Below, piece after piece: positions 47,601 to 62,346 of a stretch of DNA of 64,000 bases. Within the stretch, counting starts at the first letter, position 1. The number at the start of each line of letters is the position of its first letter. Made by a program: the position numbers and the translations under genes. The notes under the pieces were generated by a model. The model ran no database searches and was not told the DNA's origin. It saw only the letters and a list, made by a program, of their open reading frames with translations. Origin of the DNA: Bacteroidota bacterium (GTDB lineage Bacteria; Bacteroidota; Bacteroidia; Chitinophagales; Saprospiraceae). The stretch is from contig WGNL01000005.1 of NCBI GenBank assembly GCA_016124585.1, positions 62,001-126,000 of the forward strand. Reading direction: 5' to 3'.

Positions 47601-48435
47601 TGAAAGGATTGTTGGCGCTGGCATCGTCAGCATCAGTGCCACAGGAATTATAGACGCAGTTGGTATGCGTGGCTTGGTCGGGTGGAGTATCGCAGACCCG
47701 GTCGCCAGCAGTGGTGCAGTCGTCGTTGGGGCAGCCACTCTCGAAAGTGTGGTAGAGGTTCAAGTAATGCCCGATTTCATGGATGAAAACAGCGTCCTCC
47801 GCAGCGTTAGTGCCGAAATATTGTGCTTCGCAAACCATGCCGTCGTAAGGCTGGCCATGTGCCGAAGCGAGATAGGCATAGCCTGCCACCCCCGGTCCGC
47901 TGGATTGGCTGTCAATCGCCTTCACTACCCAGACGTTCAGGTACTGCGTGGGATCCCAGCGCACGAGGTCTTTCATTGCTTGGTCTTGCGTTTCCTTGAC
48001 GAGTTCGGTCAGGGTTGAAACCGTGCGGGTAATGCCGTTGGTCAACTGGCCATCTGGGGTTCGGCGGGCGAGGCAGAACTGGATTTGTGTATTTGTACCA
48101 TCGCCTTGTTGAGCGTAGTAGCCCTCGTGCGCAAACGCTTGGTTCAGGTGCTCAATAGCCATGAAGACTTGCATATCCGGTATGTTTTCCGAACCGCCAT
48201 TATGAATGATATGTACGACCACAGGTAGCACGTAAGGTAGTGCCTCCGATTTTGCAGTACCACCGCCTACTTTTTGAGCCAAAAATAGTTCCTCTAATTG
48301 CTGCTGCTGATGCAGTAGCACAGGACGGGTCTGCATCATTTCATTGCTGCCGCATGTGAGGTTGGGGGCTGTCTGAGTGGCCGCCCAAACTGGCAAAAAC
48401 AACAGGTATAGGAAAAGGAAACGTTGATTTTTCAT
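41605..48435 (-). CDS. Giant M43-type metalloprotease with PKD, FG-GAP and SprB repeats and T9SS domain
   Basis: The protein has 2276 residues. The signal peptide is about 1-20. The pappalysin/cytophagalysin-type (M43) protease domain (about 70-325) has the zinc site H219-E220-IG-H223-YLNLY-H229, the CDTPPDQ loop and the Met-turn NFMDYS (M290). Two PKD-like domains (about 330-500) follow, then a long region of KLSPTGDVIWNK-type propeller repeats (about 500-870), and an acidic CxNALDDDEDGYVDCxDxDC calcium-binding motif (about 920). FG-GAP-like motifs (DVNSDGIPEL, DFDGDGRPEI, DLDLDGILDI), a CARDB-like part, LGxDxxxC modules, about seven SprB repeats and a type A T9SS domain ending CLKWVVIE complete it. 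It is predicted to be exported and to degrade protein at the cell surface. Confidence 0.93.
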   Translation of the reverse strand: MKNQRFLFLYLLFLPVWAATQTAPNLTCGSNEMMQTRPVLLHQQQQLEELFLAQKVGGGTAKSEALPYVLPVVVHIIHNGGSENIPDMQVFMAIEHLNQAFAHEGYYAQQGDGTNTQIQFCLARRTPDGQLTNGITRTVSTLTELVKETQDQAMKDLVRWDPTQYLNVWVVKAIDSQSSGPGVAGYAYLASAHGQPYDGMVCEAQYFGTNAAEDAVFIHEIGHYLNLYHTFESGCPNDDCTTAGDRVCDTPPDQATHTNCVYNSCGTDADDASANNPFSTDVNDATENFMDYSPFGCYRNFTEGQAGRMRLSIEGFRSSLLESEGCKDPCTLPIAAAFLPSATVVQAGDVVNFTNQTNGATNFEWYVNGNLEATTTDFSYQFLGTGNLVVELRAFNADLNCLGKAQANVQVNCGVTAGFTVNSTELQVGETLVCTNTSAGATGYEWFINGVSVSTGADFSYAFSNAGYYTVLLQANGSYCGDETTLGVKVLQDGPCQGVSGEWTWTLTGGTNPYIFFGDQYEGGGIYLDNYLYPNGVVTKLSPTGDVIWNKKIEVPTNGLGGLHTTADGGCVVSMVSDGIIQNKLCKLSADGTVEWAKRIGFPSSGYDVVLQPVGNKVIAISHSDIPDKLMAVGFDEDGSVEWTKVYLMDPDFYTYATAMSKDSNAIWLAGNFGFPRGAGFIKMDFSGNIILSKRYAVTGNNDPIELRNMDATPDGGFIAAGRVNLPNSNNDFLIMKIDQAGEIEWVKKIGRYTGSELEIAGAVIAKPDGGYLAKYTALNVFSSIAAFRSDGSLDFVEQFKFNGNTTPYIGRFTEKDGMLFAWVQSTVDKISSLDLDSAGHLQTCAETNPMEDIIAEDYPLSEQPSLFTITSETLSVTNSPIVELPIANPISKQPVCTIEIPCPEDCTNALDDDEDGYVDCFDSDCQCFDGADCQPSISSDTPVTARLAWQSPVNLPGINNTPIVANLDPQNGEIPEIIVAEGISDNLNQTTVGKLLIYQGDGSNAANPDVLNIPQLMSERSTAQCVGDVNSDGIPELAVVCWDRRIRVYTNFIPGNSQPMTLLATSDLQTEWFAGHLGMADFDGDGRPEIYSGDHVFQFDFTNPNAPLLKRKLIGGQHSGFNGVSTTSSIAADLLSVSDCNGDPDCEGLELVAGAYIYSVDLDPLDGDGVEIKVARSLNALEPTGNFKDGYNYVADLDLDGILDIVTVGRHGANSNAGLYVWNKNGLLASFTNPDFNPIVDKQFFTVSIANVFDDKTAGFQQDFPEIIFPSNAKLTSFNLQQAMTNPNTPYWWSVNTQDASSAAGPSCFDFNGDGYDEVAYRDERYFRILYGGPLPLPAGVDADRNWVKMVCNSQTLDESPVVADIDADGETEVVTVGYLPPYVFGQPDYRGRLYVFKSDGQPWSPARAVWNQFNYIGVNVNDDLSIPKQQQLHHLEIPSLGSGKRPLNSSRAQWPIFNENFDPNMPVPDVLVTVDSIACAGDSLQVWLTLCNHGSNSLPVNLPIAFYQNDPRQSGAVLKKVSLSQTAVPVDSCVSFSVKMLAVFNAPVFVVANDDGSHSLPYAVANFPVTNVQECYFENNFDGFVFNHQSLSLDLGPDRSLCSNSIVELNAGEGYSSYRWQDGSTDSTFTAFGPGTYWVDVWDGCGNWQSDTVVISLNQTASIELGNDRTICEGENIQLQVPGYTNVQWSPVAGLSCVDCSSPTASPSSDITYYVTAADGNCFVSDSIRVFVEEKPVLTITAQDGDCLNIPQISVAVSGTAPVGLIWSTGATGSSIMPASSGSYSVTATSANGCESIATASVTVTNSIVLTLQTMPLTCTGGMGEASVLASGGLEPYSFNWSNGEDSSSISVATAGPISVTVTDANGCIATATTMVAVAGQLNLGITVSPISCHDGSDGIATVMSSNGLAPFSWLWADGQTTPQITGLSSGGYSVTVTDANGCSDDLSFTITAPTALALTASSTDVNCFGAMNGTATATVSGGTPGYHYFWSNTQATATATQLTPGWHTVSVTDENGCTDTTGVLVSQPPLLIAAAMPADGIVCPNELGAITASATGGTPPVSYLWNNGSGGAQISGVTAGTYTVTATDAHGCTALAMGSILAQPPYSVVLDTIIAASSPSATDGIISIDIVGGNGPFNYLWSNGINTQDLLNVAAGNYSLTITDSEGCLQEMSFTVGFLSAAEQQAAPAWEVSLLPNPTQQGRLSQLILKTYAPQSIDLQLFDITGKALWKEQLEIPAGLFVKDIASPAAAGVYLVVLSNEQEVVCLKWVVIE

Positions 48436-48623
48436 GTTTCAATAATTTGCTATTGCTGGAGCTGGCACAAGGTAATTTGGATAGTTTTTGTAATTGTATC
48501 AGATGCATAGCAAAAGCCAGATTTGACAAATAAATATCAAAATCAGGATTGATGTATTTTGGGAAAAAGGTAGTCTCTAATCTTGTCATGTTGTGATGGG
48601 AACACCTTGATCATTGAGTATAT

Positions 48624-51095
48624 CTACCGCACCAGCGTCACATCGCCATGTTCCTTGATCACCCCACAAAATGTGTCCACTGTGATGATATAAACATACA
48701 CTTCTGAAATGCAATCCTTGTCATGGTCTTTGCCATCCCAAGGCTCTGTGGAATCATGTACAATGTTGCCCCAGCGATCGTAAATCTTGAAGTCCAGTAC
48801 CCTGAATTCGTAGTGGCTGACAGGGTAAAACTGGTCGTTCATGCTGTCATTGTTTGGGGAGAAAGCATTGGGCATTTCAAAGAAACCGCATTTAGGTAAA
48901 CAATCCTGTGGGCCAACTGTGACCTCCTGTCGGCAAAGCGGCACACCCGCATCCACTGCTGTGAGGGTATAAGTCGTGATGCTGTCGCCGTAAAGTGGCC
49001 CGACTAGCGCGGGAAGGTCTGCGTAAGCGAATGTGCCGAGGATTGCGTCGTTTAGGTCAGTCACGGTGAAGGAGTCGCTAACCGAGTTGGCATCTAGGTT
49101 AATTTCCACCAAAAAAGTTGTGTCCTCGCATTCCTGTGGCATTGCAGTCAGGTTGCTAATGACACAATCCGGGCAATTATAATTCAAGGTATAAGGCTGG
49201 CTGGCGCAAATAAGTGAATCGTTTGTCATCACAGTTAGCACTACTGAACCGGAGTCGCCAGCGTTGATGACTGGAATGTCACCTACCACGGTAAGGTATT
49301 GGGCACAGGCCGAATCAATGTTCAGGGCAATATTGCATGGTTCCTGCACCGTTGAGACGAAGGGAAGAATGTCAGTGGCCAAAACCTTGATGGTCACCTC
49401 GTCCGTCAGCACGATACTTGGGTCTTCTTCGCAATTGGCTGTGACCGTGAAAGTGTAGGTAGCGGGCGCACAATCCTGATTGGATAAGAGCACATTTTCA
49501 GGGTCAATTGTATTGCCGTTTTGGTCAGTCCAAGTTGGAGTCACGGGCGAATTTCCACCTTCCACGTAGTATCCTAAACTAATGGACGACCCACTGCAAA
49601 TGACCGTATCGCTTGCAGTGGCGACAATTTCGGTTGGGCAGACAATGGCACAATCGCATTGCACGAACACCTTCACGTCGCCACCGACACCCTTGGGGTC
49701 GGTACCGTTGTTGCTGACCACTCCGTATGAAATGGCGCCAATTGGTGTGGCCGGATTTCCCGTGCTGCCAAAATTGTTCGCAGCTACCAGGCAAAGGCCA
49801 TGCGGTCCATCCTCGTTCAAAATATCAGCACTTGAACTAATGAACTGCAAAGCTGGGCCAGTATTACTTTTCAAGATAGATACGCCACCGTAAGCTTCGC
49901 TGCTTCCACCCAAGCTGCCGGGATAGCCTGTATAAATGACCCCGATCAAATTGTTGTAGATACCCGCATTTTGGCCCAGCAAAAATGCCAGCCCACCGTG
50001 GTTGTAGGAGCTGTGTAAAGAGGAAAAACAGCCCATTCTACCACCTACTAGCATATCTCCGGTCGGAGTAATTTCAATATCGGACAAGTAGATAACGTCT
50101 CTAAGGGCATGCTCTGCACCCATTTCCATTTGGAAGGTTTCGGTGCCGGTGTAATTGTCCCAAGTTGCACCAGCTGGCAAACTGGTATTGTTGATGATTC
50201 CGACAAAACTGCCATCAGTGTTGAGCGGAATCGAATAGATTTTTGGTAGTGGGCCGGAGGTAGGACTCGTGTAGCCGCAGGTACCAAAATATAATTTTGA
50301 GGCATCGGCATTTAATTCGATGCCATAGGGAATGTCGTTTAAATCATTGGGTTCGCCAGGTGCACCTGTGTCATAGAGGCCTGGGTCGTAGGAGTCGAGT
50401 ATGTTGCCGTTTTCATCAAGGCGATAGATGCGGCCATCTTCAAAATTGGTGACATAAAATTGTTTGGTAAGATGGCTAAAGACAAGGTTGCCCAGACCAG
50501 GGCCTGTATTTCGTACAATATTTATAATGCCTTCACAGGTACGGTTAAAGAATGTGTCCACCTGTTGCGGCAGCACTGAGAAAACACTTGCCTGACCGGT
50601 TTTCCCATCAATTTTATAGACCGTGCCGGCGGCCTCTGCGCTCTCGGCTCCACCCCCAATATCGCCATATCGGATTATGGATTCCGTAAAGAAAAAATAG
50701 GAGCTGTAGTTGGACGAAGCAGCGATATAAGTATTGCCGCAGCGATCCATCGTAATGCCAAATACATTGCCTATAGAATCGATTCTCCAAGATGGGTGGT
50801 GATACATTTCTACTTGGCTGCTAACATCCAGCCGCCCGGCTGCGGGTAATACGCCTTTAAGGTTCATCAACCCAAAAGTATAGCGTTGGAGTAGGGGGAC
50901 ATCCTTGGAGGTGCCGCAGGTAATGGCTGCAATGCTGTTGGTGATGATGCTCTGGCAAGCGGGATCAACTTGCCATGGCAGCCCATTGGGCTGCGCCGAT
51001 GTATCATTTGAATTAACTAAAAGACAAGATGCAAGCGCCAAAATTTGTATGAATGCCTTTCTGAATGGCTGGGATGAAGCTGGGATAATGGCCAT
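48624..51095 (-). CDS. Secreted protein with type B T9SS (gliding-associated CHU_C-like) domain
   Basis: The product has 823 residues from ATG 51095 (MAIIPASSQPFRK), with a signal peptide ending near SNDTSAQ. Residues about 60-480 look like a beta-propeller, with repeated blocks such as GNTYIAASSNY, KQFYVTNFEDGRIYRLD and GIELNADASKLYFGT. They are followed by Ig/PKD-like modules with many cysteines (CSGSSISLGYYVEGGNS). The end is a classic type B sorting domain: FEMPNAFSPNNDSMNDQF, DFKIYDRWGN and PWDGKDHDKDCISEVYVY. Type B proteins are usually surface-anchored by the PorU-independent branch. This is the only type B protein in a window of type A ones. Confidence 0.88.
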   Translation of the reverse strand: MAIIPASSQPFRKAFIQILALASCLLVNSNDTSAQPNGLPWQVDPACQSIITNSIAAITCGTSKDVPLLQRYTFGLMNLKGVLPAAGRLDVSSQVEMYHHPSWRIDSIGNVFGITMDRCGNTYIAASSNYSSYFFFTESIIRYGDIGGGAESAEAAGTVYKIDGKTGQASVFSVLPQQVDTFFNRTCEGIINIVRNTGPGLGNLVFSHLTKQFYVTNFEDGRIYRLDENGNILDSYDPGLYDTGAPGEPNDLNDIPYGIELNADASKLYFGTCGYTSPTSGPLPKIYSIPLNTDGSFVGIINNTSLPAGATWDNYTGTETFQMEMGAEHALRDVIYLSDIEITPTGDMLVGGRMGCFSSLHSSYNHGGLAFLLGQNAGIYNNLIGVIYTGYPGSLGGSSEAYGGVSILKSNTGPALQFISSSADILNEDGPHGLCLVAANNFGSTGNPATPIGAISYGVVSNNGTDPKGVGGDVKVFVQCDCAIVCPTEIVATASDTVICSGSSISLGYYVEGGNSPVTPTWTDQNGNTIDPENVLLSNQDCAPATYTFTVTANCEEDPSIVLTDEVTIKVLATDILPFVSTVQEPCNIALNIDSACAQYLTVVGDIPVINAGDSGSVVLTVMTNDSLICASQPYTLNYNCPDCVISNLTAMPQECEDTTFLVEINLDANSVSDSFTVTDLNDAILGTFAYADLPALVGPLYGDSITTYTLTAVDAGVPLCRQEVTVGPQDCLPKCGFFEMPNAFSPNNDSMNDQFYPVSHYEFRVLDFKIYDRWGNIVHDSTEPWDGKDHDKDCISEVYVYIITVDTFCGVIKEHGDVTLVR

Positions 51096-51247
51096 ACTTT
51101 TTTGTTTTTGTAAACGGTTGTAAATCAATCAATAAAAGCTGGTTACAAAATACCGAAAGGCGAAGGTAATGCGACACTGCTAGGTCGATAAATCTTGGCT
51201 AAAGAAATAAACCGATTGTCATTATTTTGGCAATGGGTTATTGTTAT

Positions 51248-51973
51248 TTAATCAGGAGAACTAATATCGACCATTGTCCTTACTCTTCCCTCGACGTACA
51301 ATTGCTGCTTCCCAGCGGCGTGTTCGTCCGTGGCAAAAGAGGTGATTTCATATTTTCCATTGCCAATGAAGCTGATTTTAGGGAGTTTGGAAGGAATTGA
51401 CCAAGGGCATTCTATCAAATATTTTTCGAGCTGGGCAGCATCCGTGGTGGGGTCTTCATTTTCAAACCTGACAACATAGGTGAATTGGTACAGTTTGCTT
51501 CGTTGCACTGATTTGGATAATACAGCCTCGCCAATATGACTGTATGGCAATATGATGGTTTCACCTTCTTTGCTCCGCAAATGAAGATTCCGGGGGCCGA
51601 TGCGTTCAATAGTGCAACTGCTGCTGCCATAGCGCATGCTGTCTCCGATATTTGCATGATTTTCAAAGCGAAAAAGCAAGCCTGGTAGGAAATCTTTCCA
51701 CAATGTGCGGCCAGACAATAAGATAAGGCCGATAATAAATAAGCTCATATATGGGCTGACGATAAATACCCGATAAGCTGTAAAAGTCAAGAACAGCACC
51801 CAAGCAATCAACTCACCTCTGAACAACCACAAATCAAATCGGCGATATGATTTGCGGTTTTTAATAAGGGGCAATACATATTGCCTGCTCAGTCTGAATA
51901 CCAGAAACAATATCACCGCCATAAGTGCCAGCAATATCAACAAGGCTATTGGAATTGGTTTTATCTCCATCAT
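51248..51973 (-). CDS. Small MscS-like mechanosensitive channel protein
   Basis: The product has 241 residues, starting at ATG 51973, which overlaps the preceding TGA in ATGATG. Three hydrophobic segments (about 5-26, 48-66, 74-92) lead into an MscS-type beta domain with FENHANIGDSMRYGSSSCTI and ERIGPRNLHLRSKEGETIIL followed by PYSHIGEAV, the conserved PNS/PYSxI-like block. The third helix lacks the usual Ala/Gly ladder, so pore gating may differ from E. coli MscS. It is translationally coupled to the cotransporter-ATPase gene, implying one physiological task such as volume or ion control. Confidence 0.78.
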   Translation of the reverse strand: MMEIKPIPIALLILLALMAVILFLVFRLSRQYVLPLIKNRKSYRRFDLWLFRGELIAWVLFLTFTAYRVFIVSPYMSLFIIGLILLSGRTLWKDFLPGLLFRFENHANIGDSMRYGSSSCTIERIGPRNLHLRSKEGETIILPYSHIGEAVLSKSVQRSKLYQFTYVVRFENEDPTTDAAQLEKYLIECPWSIPSKLPKISFIGNGKYEITSFATDEHAAGKQQLYVEGRVRTMVDISSPD

Positions 51974-54900
51974 ATCATCTCTTTTTCTTTCAACCATTTT
52001 TCCAGATAGTGCCGGAATTCAGGTTTTAATACATACCAATCATTGGCGTGTTGTTCTATTATTTTGGACTTTATTAATTCGTCAGTAGTATGGTCAAGCC
52101 ATGCTAGAGTCTCTTTGTCGAATATGTGTGCCAATTGGGTTTTTGATAGTGATTTGTGCAAGTATAATTGCAATAGCAAATAATGCCAAGCACTGTCTTT
52201 TAATCTTGGGAATTCTGCATCAATTGGGTACTTTAGTTCAATGATTTCACCTTCTGTTACTTGTAAATTCGCCAACCAAAGCCGTAATGCAAACCCAACG
52301 TTGCCTGCAGAAAGTTTGTGGATTTGGGCAAAGAGCTTATACCTTGTACTTTCTGAAAGCTGTTCTTCTTTCTGACCTTGGTATTCGATTCGTAATCCTC
52401 CTGTTGTATGTCGGTTCCAAATTACTCGTTTTAATAATTCACGAGACAACGGCGTTAGTATTATCGTTGCAATTAGTGCACTATCAATATTCGTTGTGCG
52501 TCGCAATATCTTGAGCGTATGCAGATTGCAGTTTAATATGAAATTATGGCGCCGTCCGAATTTTCGAATAATATCAGTTAGGGCATTCAAGTTGATTTCG
52601 CCAGCTGGCGCTTTCAGCCACCAAGTTTCAATATCATCCAATAAGATAGTAGCACCTGGTTTTAATATGCGTAATACTGCATCGGGAGGGCCTTCCAATC
52701 CAGTTGCCTGTTCAAAAGCAGTCTGCAAAGGGTTTGCCGTCACTGTTGTAAAAGTAGGAGGTGCCACACGGCATATCTTACCCTTTAGCATCTGTTGGGC
52801 AATGTATTCAGAAAAGTATGTCTTTCCACTTAAGGCCTCACCCGTAATCATAATGCCGCCGGATATCCCTTCCGTTATCTGATCCAATGCATTTCTAACT
52901 TCCGCTATTTCTGTTTGTCGGCTTTCTTGCTTTCTGCTGAGGTTGAGGTGTTTCCCAGAGAATAATTGACAATAATAAAAAGGAAGTTTGGCAGCGGTTT
53001 CTTTGTCAACTGTTATTTTATCTACAAAACTGCGAAGAATGTCACGGTCGTCCCGTAGGGCTTCATGTTCCCGTTCGAAGGTGGCCATGGCCACGTCTTC
53101 CTTTCGCCTATCGATAAAATCTATGAGTGTTTTAATCTTTCCTTGAACAATGTTTTCTGCATTTTCTTGCCATACTTTTATGCCTTTTCTACGTCCATCT
53201 AAACGGACATATTGTAGCAGTTCCTCCGCTTCAGAAACAATTCGACTGATAACCATTCTTCCTGCCGTAGCATCATATCTTTCATTAATCTCAAATGTGA
53301 AGTTTCGAATTATCGTCTCCGCCATATCCCTGTTGGCGGCAAATTCAGTACTGGCTTTTTCAATAATATCAGGTAGTATGGTTATATTGTCTTCTTCCTT
53401 GGCAGTGTCGATTCCATAGGCCAATAAGCTGGTATTGTTAAATACACTACTACTCACTTGGTTAAGTTGGAGTCCAAGTATAGAAAGCTTTTCTTGGAAA
53501 GGGGATATGAAATTCGTTTCAATTAAATAATCGGCGATTTTTGCGATGGATAATTTAACTGTTTCAACGCCATCCCCTTGTTCTTCCATGAAGACATCCA
53601 ATGATTTAGCGTCCATTAATTCCACCTCCTCTGGTAATTTTTGACCAATGGCACGAAGACTTTCCATCATCGATTGAGAAACCATTTCTGTAGTTTCAAA
53701 TTCACCTTCGTGCGATTGAAATGGAAGGGAGGATATACTGGACAACTGCTGTTTTTCCAGCTTATCTTTTACTTTTTCCAATGACTTTTGAAATGCTGTT
53801 ATTTTGTTTTTTATCCTTTCTTCATAATCAGCCTGTACTTTTTGAATAGCTATCTGTTTGGTGTAATATAATTTTGAAATAGCCTGTGAAAGTTGCAAGC
53901 CCGTCTCGAATTGTTGGTGAATTAAGCCTTGGTTGCGAAACCAGTTTAAAGTATATCCATTCACTATTGTTTTATCGGCTATTACTTTCTTGTTATTCAA
54001 CTTACTTTCAGCTGAGACTATCTGTTTGTTAAAGAAGGGTTCAGGTGTTGTAGTAGCTAATTGATTGCATATTTTTCGGTCAGAATTGCGGAGCAGCAGC
54101 AATGGTTTCTGCACAATTTCCAACACAGATTGGCGTATTTTGCTGAATTCTTCCTTTAAATCGGCTATTAAAACTTCTGTATTGGTAGCTGGTTCGGCAC
54201 GTTCTCTCCACTGTTTTACAAAAGATCTAATTGACTTGCTGCAACGAATGATAAGCACTGCATTGGCTGTGCCCATTTCGTATAATGCTTTATGCAAATT
54301 ACTATTGCCTTTTGCAGTTTGATAGTATTCCAAGGCATTTCGCCATTTAATGGACCTTACTTTTCCTGCATCATCAAATGAAAAGGAGGCTGGTGCTGCT
54401 GCCACCATGTTTTTTCGGTCGTTCAGGTATTTATTAATTCCATCGGAAAGAATGTTTTTAAGAATCGGCAACTCGTCCTGCTTGAATTTCCGGGAAACTT
54501 CTATAACTGCATTAATATTGGCCAATGCCTCTATCTTATCTTGCCGACTATTAATAAATTTGGATAGCGCCTCTTCAATTTCAATTGTGAATTGTAAATA
54601 TTGTTGTTGTATAGTTGCAAGGGTCTGATTTGCAAAGTCGCTAACAGCACTGTCCATCTCCTCCTCCAAAGCGTTGATAAGATGTGCCAACTGAGCTTGT
54701 GCAGGTAGTTTTAAAGCTGTCACTTTATCCTGCAATTCGGCTTGGTAGTCTTCTTTTTTCTCTATTTCATGAATGGCCAATTTTGTTACTTCAAACCTAG
54801 TGGATGCCTTGACCATCAACGTGGTGCCAATGACGCTAACCAATTCCGTTGTTTTCTCCACAAAAAATGCCTCTTCACCTGGGTTTATATTCGGAATACC

Positions 54901-56937
54901 TGTGAATATCAAATCGGCATCAGCAGATATAACCTTCATTAACTCATAGTATGGAATTTTATCCACCTCATTATTAATCACTTTTATTTCGGCTTCCATC
55001 CGATACTCGTCCAAAAGCCGCTGGATTCTGTTCTCGATGACCTTTCGGTCAACATTGTAGCTATTTATTAATAGTACTCTTATTTTGGCATGGCGCCAAT
55101 CCGGTGATGCAACGATGAATTTTGCTAAATGCAGCATTAATTCTGCATTATTGCTGAGTCCCCGCCACCATAAGTCTATTTGTTCTTTTTTTCGAAAGCC
55201 CCACCGTTTATCATAATCTAGGTATAATACATTATAATCTAGGTCGATCAATCTTTGGGTCATTTCAGCAAACCATACTGGATCCTGCGTATTCTTTGCC
55301 CATCCCATCAGGACAGTATTGGGGTCGATGCCCGAAAACCCGAATGTGGTAGCAATGGTTTCAATGCCTTTGAACACATTATTTACCTCAATTCGCCGAC
55401 CGAAAATGCCATATTTCTGCAAAAGTTCATCCCTAACATTTTGGTCGTGCTTCGTGAATAATACCTCCGACCCACTATTTTCCACTAGGTCAAAGTTCGT
55501 GACCATGCCTGCCTGACCTGCCAGCGCCCTACTGAATTCGAGCATGTGAACCCTTTGTTCTGATATGCCGCTGAATAATAAGATATTGGGTTTCCAGTTG
55601 CGCTTATGGTCCTCCGCCGACTCCATGCGCTTCAAGCCTTTTTTTACGACCGTTGACCAAACGCTCTGCCATATGTCACCTGTGCCGAGGGCTATTTGTT
55701 TGCGTTGCAACCATACGAATATGCCTCCAATAATAATAAAAGCGGCAATCATTGCTACCATATCCAGTTTGAACATGACAATGAAAGTGGCCACAAACCC
55801 TGTAAAGCCTACCCATTTATTGACCCTGAAAGTTGGTTTAAAATCTGAACTTGCCCAACTTTCCAAAAAGAAGGAAATATTGATAAAACTATAAGCGGCG
55901 AGGTAAAACATGGACACCACTCTCGCAATCATATCCAGCTCTCCAATAAGGATGCCTGCTTCCGCAATAATCACTGTCAGAATAAGCGCATTTCGGGGTT
56001 CGTTATCCGATCCTACACCCTTGCCAAATAGTTTAGGAGTAATGCGGTCAACGGACATCGCTTGTAATATTCGTGGTCCGCCAAGGATTCCTCCCAGTGC
56101 CGATGACAAGGTAGCACCCCAAATCCCTGCCACCACAGCAGGAGCAAAGAGCGCTATTTTCATCATGATATTATTGTCCGTTTTGAGGATGTCTGGCCTG
56201 ACTTTCATGCCTACGAAAACCACCAAGCCAAGATAAATTACAAAACCTACGGCGATGGCTGCAATCGTCCCCTTCGGGATGTCTTTTTTCGGGTTGGCCA
56301 AATCACCTGACATGGCAATGCCAGCCGTAAAGCCCGTCACTGCCGGGAAGAAAATAGCGAAAACAGTTTCCATTGAAACCCCGTTTTCCCCACCAAAGGC
56401 TGGCACGCTTTCTGGCACGAACGGTGAGTGGCCAAAAAATATGGCTGCCAGCGAAATGGCAATGGCTGCCATGATAAAAAACTGGGCACGAATGGCGATG
56501 GAGGTACTGATGAAAGCCAGAACTGTTAGGGCCAACAGCGTCAAACTGCCCGTGCTGCGCAACCCGTTAATGGAAGTGTCCAAGCCTAGATATGCGTTGA
56601 AACTCTCGCTGAAACCAACCAAGTAAAGTGCAATACTGAAAGCCGTGCCTGTAAAAAGTGTCATTCCGATGGCCCCACCAATCGGGAGCCCAAGGCTTCG
56701 AGAAAGGACATAATAAACACCGCCCGCCCCCACTTTTTTATCTGTGGCAATTGACGAAATGCTGAGGCCAGTACTGATGGAAATCACATGCGCAATGATG
56801 ACTATGATCACCGCACCCCAAATCCCTGCATTGCCGACGACCCAGCCTAAGCGCATGTACATGATGACGCCTAAAATGGTCAACAATGATGGTGTGAACA
56901 CGCCGTCGAAGGCGCCAAATTTTTTTTGTCCTGCCAT
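51970..56937 (-). CDS. SLC12-like cation-chloride cotransporter fused to a helical region and C-terminal P-loop ATPase
   Basis: The protein has 1655 residues. Residues 1-about 412 form an APC-superfamily permease with about 12 helices and strong similarity in style to bacterial Na-K-Cl cotransporter-like proteins (GVFTPSLLTILGVIMYMRLG, GGVYYVLSRSLGLPIGGAIG, FFPAVTGFTAGIAMSGDL). Residues 445-712 match the SLC12 cytosolic domain (NWKPNILLFSG, DYNVLYLDYD, LIFTGIPNINPGE). Residues about 715-1310 are helical and coiled-coil rich. Residues 1350-1500 are a P-loop NTPase: Walker A G1366-EALSG-K1372-T1373 and Walker B ILLDD (1431-1435). A lid-like region and a winged-helix-like tail (about 1575-1645) follow. 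The single frame is uninterrupted. An MscS-like gene overlaps its stop by 4 bases. The permease part is much more GC-rich than the rest. Confidence 0.88.
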   Translation of the reverse strand: MAGQKKFGAFDGVFTPSLLTILGVIMYMRLGWVVGNAGIWGAVIIVIIAHVISISTGLSISSIATDKKVGAGGVYYVLSRSLGLPIGGAIGMTLFTGTAFSIALYLVGFSESFNAYLGLDTSINGLRSTGSLTLLALTVLAFISTSIAIRAQFFIMAAIAISLAAIFFGHSPFVPESVPAFGGENGVSMETVFAIFFPAVTGFTAGIAMSGDLANPKKDIPKGTIAAIAVGFVIYLGLVVFVGMKVRPDILKTDNNIMMKIALFAPAVVAGIWGATLSSALGGILGGPRILQAMSVDRITPKLFGKGVGSDNEPRNALILTVIIAEAGILIGELDMIARVVSMFYLAAYSFINISFFLESWASSDFKPTFRVNKWVGFTGFVATFIVMFKLDMVAMIAAFIIIGGIFVWLQRKQIALGTGDIWQSVWSTVVKKGLKRMESAEDHKRNWKPNILLFSGISEQRVHMLEFSRALAGQAGMVTNFDLVENSGSEVLFTKHDQNVRDELLQKYGIFGRRIEVNNVFKGIETIATTFGFSGIDPNTVLMGWAKNTQDPVWFAEMTQRLIDLDYNVLYLDYDKRWGFRKKEQIDLWWRGLSNNAELMLHLAKFIVASPDWRHAKIRVLLINSYNVDRKVIENRIQRLLDEYRMEAEIKVINNEVDKIPYYELMKVISADADLIFTGIPNINPGEEAFFVEKTTELVSVIGTTLMVKASTRFEVTKLAIHEIEKKEDYQAELQDKVTALKLPAQAQLAHLINALEEEMDSAVSDFANQTLATIQQQYLQFTIEIEEALSKFINSRQDKIEALANINAVIEVSRKFKQDELPILKNILSDGINKYLNDRKNMVAAAPASFSFDDAGKVRSIKWRNALEYYQTAKGNSNLHKALYEMGTANAVLIIRCSKSIRSFVKQWRERAEPATNTEVLIADLKEEFSKIRQSVLEIVQKPLLLLRNSDRKICNQLATTTPEPFFNKQIVSAESKLNNKKVIADKTIVNGYTLNWFRNQGLIHQQFETGLQLSQAISKLYYTKQIAIQKVQADYEERIKNKITAFQKSLEKVKDKLEKQQLSSISSLPFQSHEGEFETTEMVSQSMMESLRAIGQKLPEEVELMDAKSLDVFMEEQGDGVETVKLSIAKIADYLIETNFISPFQEKLSILGLQLNQVSSSVFNNTSLLAYGIDTAKEEDNITILPDIIEKASTEFAANRDMAETIIRNFTFEINERYDATAGRMVISRIVSEAEELLQYVRLDGRRKGIKVWQENAENIVQGKIKTLIDFIDRRKEDVAMATFEREHEALRDDRDILRSFVDKITVDKETAAKLPFYYCQLFSGKHLNLSRKQESRQTEIAEVRNALDQITEGISGGIMITGEALSGKTYFSEYIAQQMLKGKICRVAPPTFTTVTANPLQTAFEQATGLEGPPDAVLRILKPGATILLDDIETWWLKAPAGEINLNALTDIIRKFGRRHNFILNCNLHTLKILRRTTNIDSALIATIILTPLSRELLKRVIWNRHTTGGLRIEYQGQKEEQLSESTRYKLFAQIHKLSAGNVGFALRLWLANLQVTEGEIIELKYPIDAEFPRLKDSAWHYLLLQLYLHKSLSKTQLAHIFDKETLAWLDHTTDELIKSKIIEQHANDWYVLKPEFRHYLEKWLKEKEMI

Positions 56938-57108: not shown

Positions 57109-60100
57109 TTACTCCTCCCAAACCTTCAAAAACCGCCCATAAGCAGGCAGTCCCATTTTCTCGCCTCTGGCAATGATGTTGTAGGCTCCTGATTTCCAAT
57201 CATTTACCATTAGTTCAAAGATGTTTTGCCCCTTTTCCAACTGCACCTCCATTGTCTGGACGAGCTGCCCTTGTTGGTTGTAAAACGCCATCGTAGCGGC
57301 CTGTTCGTGGAGGGAATACATATCCAGTGTGACCATGTATTGCGCTGGATTTGGGTAAATGCGGTCAAAGTTCAGACGTTGGCGGTTGTCGCTGAGTATC
57401 AAAGAGTTGATGCCATTGTTCCCACTGAAGCTGTTGATGCTAACGGTCGCCTCGTCATCCTCGTTCGGTGTGGGGGAGGTACCGTTGTTAGGACTGCTGT
57501 CCGAGTCCGTTTCGTTGCAGGCAAACACTTGGGCATAAGGGTGGAGCGCATTGCTGGTCAGCAAAAAATAACTTACAGTGATGGTTGCCGATTCGCCAGC
57601 GGCGAGGTCGCCAATGTACCAATGCTCATTGCCAAAGGCATTGAAAGCACCCTTCGATGCTGTGAATTCATTTCCCCCTTCGTAAACAACCCCTGCTGGT
57701 CGTGGGAATGCCACTTCCACACCCGTTGCAGCTTGCCCGCCCGCATTCTTGATGGTCAATTTTACGGGAAACGATGTGTAAATGCCGGGGCTTGGGTTCG
57801 TGGCTGTCATGGCCAGTTCAAGGTCAATGCCTTGCGGGGTGCAGTTGTCCACAATATCCAACTGACTGTTGCAGCCATTGGGGTTGCCTGAGATTTCAAT
57901 GACACCGCTTACCCCATTTGCACTCAAAACTGGATAGAGACCGCAGCAATCGCTCAGCACGGCATTGTTCCGAACCCGTAGCGAGTTGAGGCTAGTGATG
58001 CTGCTGAGGGCATCCAAGTTTTGCAAAAACTCGTTGTCCTTGATGTCCACGGCATACATGGAGGTCACGTTCTGCAAGCCTTGCAGGTTGGTCAGTTTGT
58101 TCGTGCCATTGAGGAACAAAGTGCCACCGATGCTGGTCAAATGGCTCAGTCCATGCAGGTTTTCAAGCAATGGATTGTCGTCCAAAATCAAAGTGCTTTG
58201 CAGCGCCGTGAGTTTTGAAAGTTGGTCAAGATGCAACAGGGCAGGATTTTGCGTTAGCAAAAATTCACCCCGAACGATGGCCAAATTATCCAAGCCAGTG
58301 AGCGTCTGGAGGTTGGTATTTCCTTGAATTCTCAAGTAGTTGGCGCCTGTAATGCCTTCGAGGCCGTGTAAATTGGTGAGCGCCGCTTGGCTTTCGATAA
58401 CAAGCGGTAAAATGGCATCACTGTGGAGGTTTGCCAACGGTGAAAGGCTCGCCAACACAGGATTGCCGCTCATCAGCAAGCCGCCAACGGTTGTCAGGTT
58501 GTTGAGTCCCTCAAGGCTGAGGAGTGTGGTGTTGTTCTGAATTTCCAGAAGGCCAGAAATCCCAGACAGGCTGGCCAGTGGCGTCAAATCCACAATATCC
58601 GCCCCTTCGATTCGCAAGTTACCATTGACGAAATCGCAGCCCGGAAATGCATCCACTTCGGCTTGCGAATTAAGGATATAGTCGTTGTTGCAAACAACCC
58701 CCGTCACGGCTATCGGGCTGCTCACAGTGTTGTTGTTTTCGTTGCCTTCGGCAATGGCGTTGCCCACGTCCGCCTTCACGATAAGGTAGTAATTGCCAGT
58801 GGCAAAGCCAGTCGGCAAGTCGAAAGACCCTGTTCGGTTAAAACTGCCGACCGCCGTGTTCTGCTCTGGAATGGTCGCAAACGCATAGTCGTCAGTGCTC
58901 AGCACATTGTCCGTCGATAGGAAGCTACCGATTTGATAGCTGCCCTGCACAGCTGCGTTTCCAATGTTTTTGAGGGTAAAGGTGAAGTTGCCAAGTCCAG
59001 GAGAGATGGAAGCTGGAGCTGTTAAGCCACTCAAAGTTAGATCAGGCTGGGAAGGTGGTGGAGGCGGCGGTGTGCCAGTGCTGGATGCCTCGTCGTCCTC
59101 GTTCGGCGTAGGCGGTGTGCCGTTGTTCGGGGTGGAATCGGCGTCTGGTTCATTGGCAGCTGTCACTTGGGCGTACACGACGGGGAGGGTGTTTTGAAGC
59201 AAAAAATAGTTGACAGTCAGTGTAGCGGTAGCACCCGGTGCAAGTGTCTCGACAACCCACTCTTGTGAGGCCAGAGCTTCAAAACTGCCTTGCGAAGCAG
59301 TAAATTCATTGCCACCCGTGTACACTACACCGTTGGGTTTTTGGCAAACAACCTTCACGCCCGTAGCGGGAATGCTACCTGAATTGGTGATTTTAATCGC
59401 CGTTGGATAGCTGGTGTAAATCGGAGCAGTGGCAGGGCTGGTGACAGTGAGGGAAAGGTCAATGTTCCCACTTGGCGGCGGTGCCTGCACTGTGATGGGG
59501 ATGAAAATTTTGTTGTTTGTCTCGTTGGACTCAGCGACTACTTGGTCTTTGTCGATAAAAAGAATCAAAAAATAATTGCCAGCAGATACAGTCGGTATTG
59601 TGAAATTCAGGGGGCCATAATTCTGTTGTGCATTAGCGGCAAAAGAGTAGGAAAAACTGCTGCCACCAACGAGCACGTCCGCATTGTCGAATTGATTATC
59701 CGTGGACAAATAAAGCGAATGGGTCAAACCAGAAAGCCCAGAAATGCTGGCACTGCTGTTATTGGTCACGGTGAAACTGAAAGGATAGGTTTGGTTCGGA
59801 TTCACCGTGTTTGGAGCGGTTAAATTGGAAGCAACCAAATCGGGAAGACTGGCCGAACAGGCTGGCGGGGCAGTCACGGTCAGGGTTTGTGTACAATCAG
59901 AATTCAATGAGTCGGTAAATTTCAGCGTCACATTGCCGCCACTGATGGGCATGTTCGTAATGTCGAAATTGACCCCATAGGCAATGCCGAGTGTCTGATT
60001 TGTCGGTTGTATCAGCAAATTGTACCCGATGCTTTGGAGAGTGTTGATGGCAGAGACTGTGAAACTAAAATAATCATCCGAGACAATATTTGGCGTGCCG

Positions 60101-62346
60101 TTATCATGGCATGTAGCCGTGGAAACATTGGCGACCAATGCGCAGCTCCCATAAACTGTAAATACTTGACTGCTCGCTTGGTTGTTGTTTTCATTGCTTT
60201 CAGCTACAGTATTCGCTTGGTCCGCCACAACCACCAAGTAATAATTCCCCGGCGTGAGCGAACTGGAAAGCACAGGGCTTGGCGACAAATTAAGGGAAGC
60301 TCCTGCCGCCAAACTTTGCTGCGAAAGGCTGGAAAGCAGAACGCTGTTGGTCGTCAAAGTCGGCGTGCTGCTCACATAGATTTTTACATCGAAGCCGCTG
60401 GGAGCAGCGCCTGTGCCCAAGTTTGAGAGCGTGAATGTAACAGGTAAATGTGAGCCTGCCTGTACGGTATTGGCATTGATGGTCAGTAGGGTAACGCTTG
60501 AAATATTGAGGTCTGGATTGCCCGTAGGTGCATTCTGATTGCAGACTTGAATGTCATCAATAGTGGCGCATTGGCTGCCTTGTTTCCAAACCAAAAGATG
60601 CACGTAGGCTGCACCCGTTGGTGCCACAGCTTGCAGGTTGTAAAGCTGGTAAGTATTACTGTAAATGTTTTGGACGTCATTCCCTGTGGTCAAAGGGGTA
60701 AAGGAGGCATTCAAAAACCTCAGTTCCACGCTCGCATTGTTCGGTGGGTTATCCGATTTTGCCCAAAAGGAAGCTGTAAACGTCTGCCCAGCCTGGGCTT
60801 GGTAAATCTGGCCAATACTGCCCGGAGCTGTACCGCAAATCCTTGCTGCACTAGCGCCGGTTTTGGCATCATTGGTGGTCACCACATTGCCAGTGACACT
60901 CCAGCCAGCCAATCCATTTTCAAAACTTGGATTGACAATCAAGTTGGTGCAACCTCCAAATACTTGGCAACCGCATCCCGCCACATCCGAGATGGGAGAG
61001 GCAACCGCCACTGGGGTGACCGTCGTGGATGAGAGCGAATAGCTGTTGCTTAGTGGAATCATATTCGAAACAGCACTATATGGGTTTGTCAAATTGGTGG
61101 TAGTCACCTGTACATCTTTCACAAAACTGCAGCCCGCACCCAGTACTTCGCCATTCATGGACATTTTACCAAAAAGAATATCGTTGCTGTTGTCAAAAGC
61201 GTTGGAATGCCCCACAAAGTAGATATGGCCATCGTGGTAAGCAATGGAGCGGCCAGTCTCGTTTTCAGGACTGCCAATGGCTTTCGCCCATATCATTTGG
61301 CCCTTTCGGTTCACCTTCATGATGAAAATCTCGGTTTTACCCGATTGGGTAAATGTGCCGGAAACCACATACCCTCCAGGGACGACCACTACATTACCTG
61401 CGTTGTGGTTGTTGCCTGGCAATTGGTAGTTTTTTGCCCAATCAATATTTCCGTCCAGTGTAGTGGCGAATAGCTGGAAACTGTAATCCGCATCAGTAGT
61501 ACCGTTCAGGTTGCCGTGCCCAAAAACGATGAAAGTGTCATTGACTTCCTCCATCGAATAGGCGTAAGTCCGGGCATTGGCCGCTTGGTCCCGGATATAG
61601 CTTTTCGTCCAAATCTGGTTCCCCGTCAAATCCAATTTTGAAACGGCAGCCCTTATTTTTTCCAAACCACTTCCGTACCGCTGAACGTTGGCAGTATAGC
61701 AGCTACCATTTTTCACAATGACATCCAAGAAGACATCGGTTGGGCCGTTGTTGTAGGATTTTTGCCAGACTAGGCTGCCGTTGTTCTTGTTCACTTCCAG
61801 TGCCAGATTGTCAGCGCCGGTGGTGCCTGGTTGCATCATTCCCACCACTATATAATTGCCGTTTGGTAACTGAGCCAATGACTCGAAACGGGCATTCGTG
61901 AAATTGGTCATTTTTTTATTCCATAGGATGGACTGGCTTTGGTAGTCGTACCGCATGATGAAACTGTAGGAGGACGGGTTGATTACATCACGCCCTACAG
62001 CGACCAATTTGCCCTCCGAATCAATCATCAAGTCATACACAAAGTCGTCCCCTGTGCTGTAATTGAAAGTGCGTTCCCAAATCACCTCACCAGTGGGGGT
62101 GGCCATCGTAATCGAAGCTGAATTGCCTTTCGAGCCACCGATGAGGAAATTCCCTTCGGGGGTAGGAATGATTTTAAAGGCACGTTCCGGAACGGCATAT
62201 TCCCCAATCTTGCGAATGAAGGTGGTGTCGCATCCTTGGGCTGCCATTTCATTTACGAAGGAAAAAAGTGTGAAAATGCAGGCAAACAGGAGTGGCATTT
62301 TCGCCAAAAAAGTCTGTGACTTAGAGAAAAAATGTAGCTTGTTCAT
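57109..62346 (-). CDS. Giant secreted protein: propeller, CBM-like, CARDB and leucine-rich repeats, T9SS domain
   Basis: The protein has 1745 residues. The signal peptide is about 1-36. A propeller-like region with repeated IxWxK(x)Y and GGxxxVSG motifs reaches about 450. A CBM_4_9-like domain (about 466-605: NLIVNPSFENGLAGWSVTG) follows. Three CARDB-like domains (about 609-730, 832-955, 1095-1218) have SESNENNN-type strands. Two DUF11-like segments flank proline-rich spacers. A leucine-rich region with about nine L-domain repeats (about 1215-1500: LRIQGNTNLQTLTGLDNL and similar) precedes a T9SS domain ending AYGRFLKVWEE. It is probably a surface-exposed binding protein. Its C-terminal 90 residues closely match the next gene's. 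Confidence 0.88.
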   Translation of the reverse strand: MNKLHFFSKSQTFLAKMPLLFACIFTLFSFVNEMAAQGCDTTFIRKIGEYAVPERAFKIIPTPEGNFLIGGSKGNSASITMATPTGEVIWERTFNYSTGDDFVYDLMIDSEGKLVAVGRDVINPSSYSFIMRYDYQSQSILWNKKMTNFTNARFESLAQLPNGNYIVVGMMQPGTTGADNLALEVNKNNGSLVWQKSYNNGPTDVFLDVIVKNGSCYTANVQRYGSGLEKIRAAVSKLDLTGNQIWTKSYIRDQAANARTYAYSMEEVNDTFIVFGHGNLNGTTDADYSFQLFATTLDGNIDWAKNYQLPGNNHNAGNVVVVPGGYVVSGTFTQSGKTEIFIMKVNRKGQMIWAKAIGSPENETGRSIAYHDGHIYFVGHSNAFDNSNDILFGKMSMNGEVLGAGCSFVKDVQVTTTNLTNPYSAVSNMIPLSNSYSLSSTTVTPVAVASPISDVAGCGCQVFGGCTNLIVNPSFENGLAGWSVTGNVVTTNDAKTGASAARICGTAPGSIGQIYQAQAGQTFTASFWAKSDNPPNNASVELRFLNASFTPLTTGNDVQNIYSNTYQLYNLQAVAPTGAAYVHLLVWKQGSQCATIDDIQVCNQNAPTGNPDLNISSVTLLTINANTVQAGSHLPVTFTLSNLGTGAAPSGFDVKIYVSSTPTLTTNSVLLSSLSQQSLAAGASLNLSPSPVLSSSLTPGNYYLVVVADQANTVAESNENNNQASSQVFTVYGSCALVANVSTATCHDNGTPNIVSDDYFSFTVSAINTLQSIGYNLLIQPTNQTLGIAYGVNFDITNMPISGGNVTLKFTDSLNSDCTQTLTVTAPPACSASLPDLVASNLTAPNTVNPNQTYPFSFTVTNNSSASISGLSGLTHSLYLSTDNQFDNADVLVGGSSFSYSFAANAQQNYGPLNFTIPTVSAGNYFLILFIDKDQVVAESNETNNKIFIPITVQAPPPSGNIDLSLTVTSPATAPIYTSYPTAIKITNSGSIPATGVKVVCQKPNGVVYTGGNEFTASQGSFEALASQEWVVETLAPGATATLTVNYFLLQNTLPVVYAQVTAANEPDADSTPNNGTPPTPNEDDEASSTGTPPPPPPSQPDLTLSGLTAPASISPGLGNFTFTLKNIGNAAVQGSYQIGSFLSTDNVLSTDDYAFATIPEQNTAVGSFNRTGSFDLPTGFATGNYYLIVKADVGNAIAEGNENNNTVSSPIAVTGVVCNNDYILNSQAEVDAFPGCDFVNGNLRIEGADIVDLTPLASLSGISGLLEIQNNTTLLSLEGLNNLTTVGGLLMSGNPVLASLSPLANLHSDAILPLVIESQAALTNLHGLEGITGANYLRIQGNTNLQTLTGLDNLAIVRGEFLLTQNPALLHLDQLSKLTALQSTLILDDNPLLENLHGLSHLTSIGGTLFLNGTNKLTNLQGLQNVTSMYAVDIKDNEFLQNLDALSSITSLNSLRVRNNAVLSDCCGLYPVLSANGVSGVIEISGNPNGCNSQLDIVDNCTPQGIDLELAMTATNPSPGIYTSFPVKLTIKNAGGQAATGVEVAFPRPAGVVYEGGNEFTASKGAFNAFGNEHWYIGDLAAGESATITVSYFLLTSNALHPYAQVFACNETDSDSSPNNGTSPTPNEDDEATVSINSFSGNNGINSLILSDNRQRLNFDRIYPNPAQYMVTLDMYSLHEQAATMAFYNQQGQLVQTMEVQLEKGQNIFELMVNDWKSGAYNIIARGEKMGLPAYGRFLKVWEE

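Follow-up and report, generated by a model that had tools for sequence, protein, structure and literature searches.

An SLC12-type cotransporter fused to a P-loop NTPase and paired with an MscS-like channel gene: a candidate controller of monovalent-cation flux in a Bacteroidota bacterium

The window, i.e. the whole 64,000-nucleotide stretch of Bacteroidota DNA analysed here, carries on its minus strand a very long gene followed by a short one. The long gene (51970-56937) is read as one frame of 1655 codons that opens at an ATG and is not interrupted by a stop, in which an SLC12 cotransporter is followed by a long cytosolic helical region and then by a P-loop NTPase; it is present as a single copy in the window's own genome. 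The short gene (51248-51973), encoding an MscS-like protein, begins within an ATGA at the stop of the fusion gene, and its longest frame extends to an ATG at 51997. The features are as follows.

51970..56937, minus strand: SLC12-helical-ATPase fusion protein, 1655 aa; a single open frame (57 such fusions, this one included, have an ATPase domain that can be read)
55702..56937, minus strand: SLC12 permease domain, residues 1-412 (Pfam AA_permease, 160.7 bits; phmmer match to NKCC1; NKCC1-aligned ion-site residues conserved)
54802..55650, minus strand: SLC12-type cytosolic domain, residues 430-712 (TIGR00930 to residue 671; KCC chains to residue 664; Pfam SLC12 20.2 bits, cut-off 27)
53011..54801, minus strand: long helical region, residues 713-1309 (AlphaFold2 model; no transmembrane segment by hydropathy; aligns with relatives)
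51973..53010, minus strand: predicted P-loop NTPase domain, winged-helix-like at its C-terminus, residues 1310-1655 (whole-tail Foldseek search; alignment)
52819..52842, minus strand: Walker A motif GEALSGKT, residues 1366-1373 (GxxxxGK[ST] intact in 54 of the 57 fused proteins)
52618..52647, minus strand: Walker B-like motif ILLDDIETWW, residues 1431-1440 (D1435 kept in 45/57, E1437 in 51/57, W1439 and W1440 in 52/57 each)
51985..52194, minus strand: winged-helix-like C-terminal element, residues 1582-1651 (our reading of the modelled secondary structure)
51248..51973, minus strand: predicted MscS-like channel subunit, of 241 aa if started at the ATGA or 249 aa if started at the ATG at 51997 (Pfam; PDB profile; AlphaFold2; Foldseek; ATGA overlap)

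The uninterrupted frame, the Walker A motif with K1372 and the ATGA overlap had been described in a sequence-only reading of this DNA, and all three hold; K1372 is invariant in the 16 rows of the first alignment. The same reading gave the Walker B motif as ILLDD, which is present in the window but is kept only in part elsewhere, as the first D is D in just 21 of the 57 fused proteins; the second (D1435) and the glutamate two residues on (E1437) are more constant.

Residues 1-671 of the fusion protein match SLC12 in Pfam, NCBIfam and PDB chains. The AA_permease match lies far above its cut-off of 24.6 bits, and solved structures are matched as well, at E 2.5e-77 for chains of NKCC1 and about 1e-71 for those of KCC, with a phmmer match to NKCC1 (E 2.6e-78) and an APC-type permease domain that can be aligned with solved SLC12 structures. 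TIGR00930 is matched with an E-value of 7e-114, at 381.9 bits against a strict model cut-off of 953.4, and the Pfam SLC12 C-terminal domain also falls below its cut-off; because of these two curated thresholds, the permease is regarded as a diverged bacterial SLC12 relative rather than a typical member. When the residues of the NKCC1 K+ and Na+ sites, as listed in PMC7889885, are compared with the fusion protein, I21, Y105, P198 and T201 are kept at the K+ site, with N298 of NKCC1 replaced by T20, and L19, A275, S278 and S279 are kept at the Na+ site, with W300 replaced by L22. Y105, P198, T201, A275, S278 and S279, as aligned with the sites in that list, are invariant wherever readable in 69 tailed rows. 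At the Cl- site positions of NKCC1, G23, V24, G202 and Y349 of the fusion protein are kept and the others changed. The residues aligned with ion sites resemble those of a Na-K-Cl (NKCC) transporter rather than a K-Cl one, and a KCC-type assignment taken from the family name was rejected because the serines of the NKCC1 Na+ site are kept; NKCC-type coupling is uncertain owing to the replacements by T20 and L22. The protein shares with NKCC1 and KCC both the permease and the cytosolic domain, but it has about 940 extra residues with an NTPase, has an MscS partner, and lacks the long N-terminal tail of NKCC1, with the alignment beginning at NKCC1 residue 281.

The tail following this domain (residues 713-1655) was modelled with AlphaFold2 at a mean pLDDT of 83.4. 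A search for a hydropathy peak in residues 713-1309 revealed none, and this helical region aligns with the same region of standalone relatives of about 1000 aa and of relatives of about 1500 aa. In the NTPase part, residues 1340-1387 match AAA_16 weakly, below the Pfam cut-off, and no NTPase family of Pfam or NCBIfam scores above cut-off for the window protein. The sequence-only reading had suggested comparing the structure of this end with STAND, ORC/Cdc6 and AAA folds, and the model of the whole tail indeed matched Orc1/Cdc6, RuvB, Apaf-1 and CED-4 in Foldseek, the best match being 2qby (E 4.7e-6, TM 0.50 by target length); as the query was the helical region and NTPase together, the helical region has no fold match of its own. 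The sequence profile of the ATPase reaches Orc1/Cdc6 at only 6.4e-5, over part of the domain, and ClpC and Hsp104 chains in the PDB score alike. The model ends in helices and two strands (tail-model residues 870-939), read by us as a winged helix. Fold matches, this putative winged-helix-like C-terminus and an LDDxE.WW-like Walker B region make the NTPase resemble STAND and Orc1/Cdc6 proteins (Apaf-1, CED-4, Orc1), from which it differs in being joined to an ion transporter. STAND-type Walker A and hhhhDD-type Walker B regions are both found, but GN[IV]G stands where STAND proteins have GxP, a motif that precedes their winged helix: the G is kept in 57/57 fused proteins and a P two residues on occurs in only 5/57. 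The Walker motifs suggest nucleotide binding, not gating.

The product of the short gene is predicted to be an MscS-type channel subunit, with both the beta domain and the fold of that family. MS_channel_2nd is matched at 27.3 bits (Pfam cut-off 20.2), and a profile of the protein and its counterparts finds MscS and YnaI chains in the PDB (best E 5.5e-13). The AlphaFold2 model (pLDDT 82.5) has helices at 9-36, 40-72, 74-87 and 89-103, followed by beta and alpha/beta parts, and Foldseek matches it with MscK, MscS and YnaI (E 6e-11), at a TM of only about 0.35 due to poor whole-chain superposition. The likeness to MscS, YnaI and MscK covers the helices, including the split third one, the beta domain and the alpha/beta domain. 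The partner differs from these channels in being short (about 240 aa), in its median identity of 20% among 15 fused loci, and in being encoded together with an ATPase.

A scan of genome contigs with the diverged tail found nothing, whereas alignment of the conserved permease succeeded, giving the best 80 of 564 relatives. The 57 fused proteins whose ATPase domain is readable come from many assemblies and are counted without L034, L041 and L042 (cut or broken) and L040 (no SLC12); the duplicates L166, L168, L169 and L236 were left out of the fused totals. The isolate Agaribacillus aureus BMA12 (L215) is among the carriers of the pair, and tail-less genes occur in Maribacter and Winogradskyella. 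In L041 (also L169), the tail frame is interrupted by a stop. The possibility raised earlier that permease and ATPase are separate genes in close relatives, with an assembly error here, fails: the same architecture recurs in many assemblies, an artefact was rejected on that ground, and the relatives are not split, the one exception being L040, which has no SLC12 at all. Nor did the full-length protein prove to be a family already known, given that no full-length match was obtained in Pfam, NCBIfam or PADLOC. It had also been asked whether an MscS gene always follows; it is a conserved partner, lying within 1500 bp downstream in 50 of the 55 distinct fused loci with readable downstream DNA, but not a constant one, as none was found in the available downstream DNA of the other five (L179, L196, L206, L208 and L225). 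Gaps between the two genes, measured from longest frames (n=49), are no longer than 60 bp in 46 cases, and 23 pairs overlap or abut. An earlier scan had matched 66 of 199 genomes, and MscS adjacency was assessed for its best 30 loci (the window's included) and for a small number of further ones. Neither ATPase nor MscS was found beside 27 tail-less relatives (23 with at least 700 bases of downstream DNA, four with less) or beside the plain SLC12 loci L086 and L089-L099, and four SLC12 proteins (L207, L211, L216 and L217) have long tails with no recognisable ATPase. These four proteins and the five loci without MscS indicate that the parts can exist apart.

Fused permeases and the plain permeases nested among them form one clade in a quick FastTree phylogeny with long outgroup branches, which argues for one old fusion with several later losses of the tail; plain SLC12 descendants persist without the ATPase module. 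Median identity among fused loci is 64% for the permease, 20% for MscS and 15% for the helical region (L034, L035, L036, L041 and L042 left out), a very fast divergence of the latter two that is unusual for a housekeeping regulator. Across 48 loci, with MscS rows cut to their last 255 residues, ATPase similarity correlates with MscS similarity at a rho of 0.70 (0.64 allowing for the permease), and with permease similarity at only 0.38. Although the permease shares a chain with the ATPase and MscS is a separate protein, it is MscS whose divergence the ATPase follows more closely.

The ATPase module also occurs outside SLC12 proteins, where it adjoins an MscS-like gene in 48 of the 51 distinct loci examined (repeats among L043-L050 left out), with the order reversed five times, so that the module is usually paired with MscS and the fusion is one version of this pairing; many loci have ATPase and MscS with no recognised transporter in the same operon. 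Only strong module matches, at 33 loci, were followed, and a tally of 371 of 395 genomes was set aside, because most of its weak matches (about E 1e-6, in frames of some 850 aa) seem to be AAA+ proteins of other kinds, as the profile also matches ClpC and Hsp104 chains in the PDB. In a second lineage, of about 1500 aa, the tail aligns end to end with that of the window protein (E 2e-39, 888 columns) and the ATPase module follows a membrane domain. This type lies in an operon with MscS, TrkH and TrkA at 6/6 loci, TrkH and TrkA scoring above the Pfam cut-off in each, and its membrane domain matches Na_H_Exchanger above the cut-off of 26.2 bits in four of the six (72.0-79.8 bits). A Pfam exchanger match is absent from the membrane domain or N-terminus in the other two (L135 and L147) and in L156 and L155; at L156, TrkH (181 bits) is accompanied by a double TrkA, and L155 is flanked by no MscS or TrkH gene. 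L157 lacks MscS; its run of overlapping genes includes an Na_H_Exchanger gene (71.7 bits). No solved structure was matched by a profile of the 414-aa operon gene and its relatives, and the members scanned have no Pfam exchanger match. TrkH/TrkA and Kef-type K+ systems, which have nucleotide-binding regulatory domains, resemble the unit in placing such a domain on or beside a monovalent-cation transporter, and TrkH and TrkA themselves occur in the operons of the second lineage; here, however, the regulator is an Orc/STAND-like NTPase with a 600-residue arm, where those systems use an RCK/TrkA domain, and an MscS channel accompanies it. CbrA-type proteins are secondary transporters fused to a histidine kinase and are similar in welding such a transporter to a signalling enzyme, but both transporter and enzyme are different and there is no channel partner.

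We consider it somewhat probable that the two-gene unit is a nucleotide-dependent controller of monovalent-cation flux, in which uptake is coupled to MscS-mediated release in osmotic or ion homeostasis. The SLC12 symporter would carry Na+, K+ and Cl- inward, and about 600 residues of cytosolic helices, together with the Orc/STAND-like P-loop NTPase and its winged-helix-like end, would form a C-terminal regulatory arm. The NTPase would act as a nucleotide switch and would not drive transport. Whether it is bound to ATP or ADP would depend on cellular energy or turgor, and this state would be passed to the permease via the helical arm and to the MscS channel via direct contact, so that uptake and release would be set against each other. 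What the sequences show directly is the fusion and how old it is, the pairing of the two genes, motif conservation, the recurring link with other monovalent-cation transporters and the ATPase-MscS co-divergence; from these we infer direct contact, transport direction, nucleotide gating and turgor or osmolarity as the signal. The earlier idea of uptake and release in one unit fits the second lineage, with its TrkH, TrkA, MscS and exchangers, but the coupling itself is conjectural.

Several other explanations may be weighed against such a controller. The ATPase could be an AAA+ assembly or quality-control factor that acts on the MscS ring and the transporter in the membrane by loading, remodelling or scaffolding, and does not gate flux; its fold resembles that of AAA+ machines, it co-diverges with MscS, and many loci have the pair with no recognised transporter. 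However, Pfam showed no domain for substrate handling in any of the proteins scanned, and an ATPase stably fused to membrane-transporter domains of two different kinds is more readily seen as a permanent subunit than as a chaperone, making this role unlikely. Membrane defence, in which a STAND-like NTPase would sense infection via the fast-evolving arm and open an MscS death pore, the transporter being an anchor or a guarded target, accords with the presence of Apaf-1 and CED-4 among the fold matches, with how very rapidly the helical region, the ATPase and MscS diverge relative to the conserved permease, and with repeated loss of the tail. Against it stand the repeated link with SLC12, Na/H exchanger, TrkH and TrkA, the single copy in the window's genome and the single old origin of the fusion. 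PADLOC had no match for the window's two proteins at E-values of up to 1, nor any for four of five relatives scanned, the fifth (the ATPase of L040) having three weak matches (best 6e-4), and tblastn with the window's tail found no match among 72,556 plasmid records or among 50,697 from phages, a weak test given how fast the tail diverges. The defence role entertained in the sequence-only reading is left unsupported by these scans; it was rejected as first choice on the PADLOC, plasmid and phage negatives, and we hold it to be more unlikely still than an assembly factor.

An intact Walker A motif in nearly all fused proteins might suggest that the ATPase energises transport, turning a secondary symporter into an ATP-driven pump. 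Such a pump is highly improbable and was rejected: the fold matches are of the Orc/Cdc6/RuvB/STAND kind and not ABC or P-type pumps, the permease residues aligned with gradient-coupled sites are kept, and tail-less relatives with the same permease persist. That the arrangement has no functional link at all, being an accidental fusion with a chance neighbour or an assembly artefact, could draw on the loci without MscS or ATPase and on the broken tail frame of L041 (also L169), but it is scarcely credible in view of the many assemblies contributing fused proteins, their permeases in one clade, the MscS gene kept at 50 of 55 fused loci and the recurrence of the module in a second transporter context.

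The flux-controller reading may be extended, tentatively and with less conviction than for the window's own unit, to a widespread class built on an Orc/STAND-like ATPase module. The nucleotide state of this module would gate MscS-type channels, and on at least two occasions it would have become linked to a secondary transporter (an SLC12 protein and an Na+/H+ exchanger), setting K+ and Na+ uptake and release together. No such class was found in the families or literature searched, and no title or abstract opening describing an SLC12-ATPase and MscS unit was found in a collection that includes few subscription papers. If the reading is correct, MscS-type channels would gain a dedicated ATPase partner and, in these bacteria, would be ATPase-gated and not only tension-gated. 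Bacterial SLC12 relatives appear to have received little study, and the permease has human relatives that serve as drug targets; if an SLC12 protein is indeed tied to an ATPase and a release channel here, the coordination of uptake and efflux in volume control would become directly testable in a two-gene system. The same ATPase module is joined to two unrelated cation transporters. In the window's genome, a search for three other K+ uptake families found neither Kup nor KdpA and one TrkH, and the genome holds only nine MscS-domain genes.

The sequence-only reading had described one unbroken frame joining an SLC12-like permease and its cytosolic domain to a helical stretch and a P-loop NTPase. 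The frame was confirmed in the window:

51970-56937, minus strand, SLC12-helical-ATPase frame, 1655 codons, starting with ATG and free of internal stops

SLC12 matches were found for both the permease and the cytosolic domain, in agreement with that description. Hydropathy shows no transmembrane segment in residues 713-1309, which form long helices in the predicted structure; the model gives residues 1310-1655 as a P-loop NTPase domain that finishes in a winged-helix-like element (mean pLDDT 83.4 for residues 713-1655). The same reading had suggested comparing the 1310-1655 region with STAND, ORC/Cdc6 and AAA folds, and Foldseek placed the model of residues 713-1655 near Orc1/Cdc6, RuvB, Apaf-1 and CED-4 (best E 4.7e-6). 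The ATGA overlap noted earlier is present: it contains the stop codon of the fusion and the start of an MscS-like gene, identified as such by a Pfam match and a PDB profile search (E 5.5e-13). The AlphaFold2 model of the MscS-like protein has helices at residues 9-36, 40-72, 74-87 and 89-103 ahead of its beta and alpha/beta parts, and matched MscK, MscS and YnaI in Foldseek (E 6e-11, TM about 0.35).

The fusion is not restricted to the window. When the tail was searched across the family, relatives turned up in frames of up to 1689 aa, together with shorter proteins of about 800 aa. In a class-wide search with the permease, matches of at least 55% identity sat in frames of 1638-1738 aa, with the sole exception of G585 (732 aa), and those of 42% identity or less in frames of 618-795 aa. 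Among the best 80 of 564 relatives in a broad genome scan, the ATPase was present in 44; 27 were plain SLC12 proteins of less than 800 aa, and the other nine were either cut at a contig end (five) or long-tailed with no recognisable ATPase (four). SLC12 proteins of the long-tailed kind (1196-1345 aa) occur at loci L207, L211, L216 and L217. An assembly artefact, with the two parts encoded separately in close relatives, was rejected, as long fused frames recur in these relatives and all searches combined gave 57 fused proteins in which the ATPase domain is readable. The best 80 carry the labels Bacteroidota (Saprospiraceae, Flavobacteriales, Bacteroidales and others), Chlorobiota, Calditrichota, Gemmatimonadetes, SAR324, Marinimicrobia and Proteobacteria, the rarer phyla calling for caution because most of these genomes are metagenome bins. 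A FastTree phylogeny of 104 permeases groups 64 fused rows, 28 plain ones and five long-tailed ones in a single clade (local support 99), within which 23 plain rows, 20 of them labelled Flavobacteriaceae, make up a nested tail-less group; a few Bacteroidales rows also lack the tail. The plain proteins stop shortly past the junction common to the fused proteins. The simplest reading of these sequences is that the fusion arose once, long ago, and that the tail was later lost several times. Locus L040 encodes a 923-aa protein that starts at the SLC12-tail junction and is accompanied by an MscS; no SLC12 was found in its genome (G118, 91% complete), and the SLC12 part has perhaps been lost in this case.

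Whether the MscS-like gene always follows the fusion had been left as a question. It does so in 50 of 55 distinct fused loci with readable downstream DNA, and is missing there from five (L179, L196, L206, L208 and L225), four of which fall together on one branch, among rows labelled Chlorobiota and Bacteroidales. The total combines a first set including the window (17/17 with readable downstream DNA, a broken ATPase piece intervening at L041) with broad-scan loci having at least 700 bases downstream (MscS within 1500 bp in 37/42, counting L244, where it sits in an overlapping frame); four loci are common to both. Neither MscS nor ATPase lies beside any of the 27 plain SLC12 proteins, 23 of which have at least 700 bases downstream, nor beside the plain loci L086 and L089-L099. 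The absence of the tail coincides with the absence of MscS.

The ATPase module is also found apart from SLC12. In proteins of about 800 aa, the second helical half and the ATPase are shared with the tail (hhalign E 2.4e-42, 535 columns); larger ones of about 1000 aa share nearly all of it (E 1e-48, 870 columns). An MscS-like gene adjoins the module in 48 of 51 distinct non-SLC12 loci (43 downstream, five upstream). A profile built from the MscS partners of the fused loci, which took in the partner at L040 and no other from these loci, matched each of them at E 2e-10 or better. At L156 the MscS is present with a longer overlap; L155 and L157 have no adjacent MscS-like gene. A short ATPase version of 428-433 aa, without the long helical region, is encoded at L141 and L142, again followed by MscS, and L139:1779-5917 carries two more MscS-like genes beyond the one after its ATPase.

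Proteins of about 1500 aa combine an N-terminal membrane domain with a tail that can be aligned from end to end with the window's (E 2e-39, 888 columns). All six such loci (L133, L134, L135, L145, L146 and L147) have the same gene order: a 414-422-aa membrane protein, the fusion, MscS, TrkH and TrkA, the last two exceeding the Pfam cut-off in 6/6. The membrane domain scores above the Na_H_Exchanger cut-off in L133, L134, L145 and L146 (72.0-79.8 bits vs 26.2) and has no Pfam match in the near-identical L135 and L147. The 414-422-aa protein can be aligned to the N-terminal domain of the fusion, and gave no Pfam exchanger match among the members scanned. L156 encodes a 1465-aa protein with an unmatched N-terminus, accompanied by TrkH (181 bits) and by a double TrkA; the 1540-aa protein of L155 has no TrkH or MscS gene next to it. 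At L157:3877-7981, genes for a 749-aa ATPase, a weakly EI24-like membrane protein and an Na_H_Exchanger protein (71.7 bits) overlap in a run without MscS. This second fusion to a monovalent-cation transporter, together with operon links to a third family, is the strongest sign of function.

At the positions aligned with the NKCC1 ion sites listed in PMC7889885, the residues Y105, P198 and T201 (K+) and A275, S278 and S279 (Na+) are invariant across 69 tailed rows wherever they can be read, and almost invariant among plain bacterial SLC12 rows. N298 and W300 of NKCC1 are replaced by T20 and L22. The permease can be predicted with moderate confidence to import K+ and Cl- in an Na+-dependent manner. 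In the window's genome there are one TrkH and nine MscS-domain matches, the window's own among the nine; searches for Kup and KdpA in it found none.

Among 15 fused loci the permease has the highest median identity (64%), ahead of the cytosolic domain (47%) and the ATPase (26%), with MscS (20%) and the helical region (15%) the lowest. Across 48 loci, ATPase similarity correlates better with the similarity of the separate MscS protein (rho 0.70, or 0.64 once the permease is accounted for) than with that of the permease to which the ATPase is fused (rho 0.38). Direct ATPase-MscS contact would explain this co-divergence, joint replacement of tail and MscS would explain it too, and the correlation may be a technical effect of fast-evolving parts.

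On balance, we slightly favour a nucleotide switch that would set the importer against the MscS-type release channel, the balance between them serving osmotic control. A bolder reading, in which a class of ATPases gates MscS channels and transporters jointly, is tentative. That the ATPase acts as a chaperone seems doubtful, and an ATP-driven pump very unlikely. A defence system is improbable and a weaker explanation than osmotic control: PADLOC left the window's proteins unmatched, cation transporters repeatedly accompany the module, and plasmid and phage collections yielded no copy, in a search that was weak given the divergence of the tail. The full-length architecture matched no family in Pfam, NCBIfam or PADLOC, and no description of the fusion-MscS unit was found in the literature by title or abstract opening, with incomplete coverage. 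Nucleotide-binding regulators of K+ transporters are already known.

The unit is flanked by very large genes (window 41605-51128 and 57109-62346; 2276, 834 and 1745 aa), which do not look related to it; the 834-aa product carries a CHU_C type IX secretion domain at its end.
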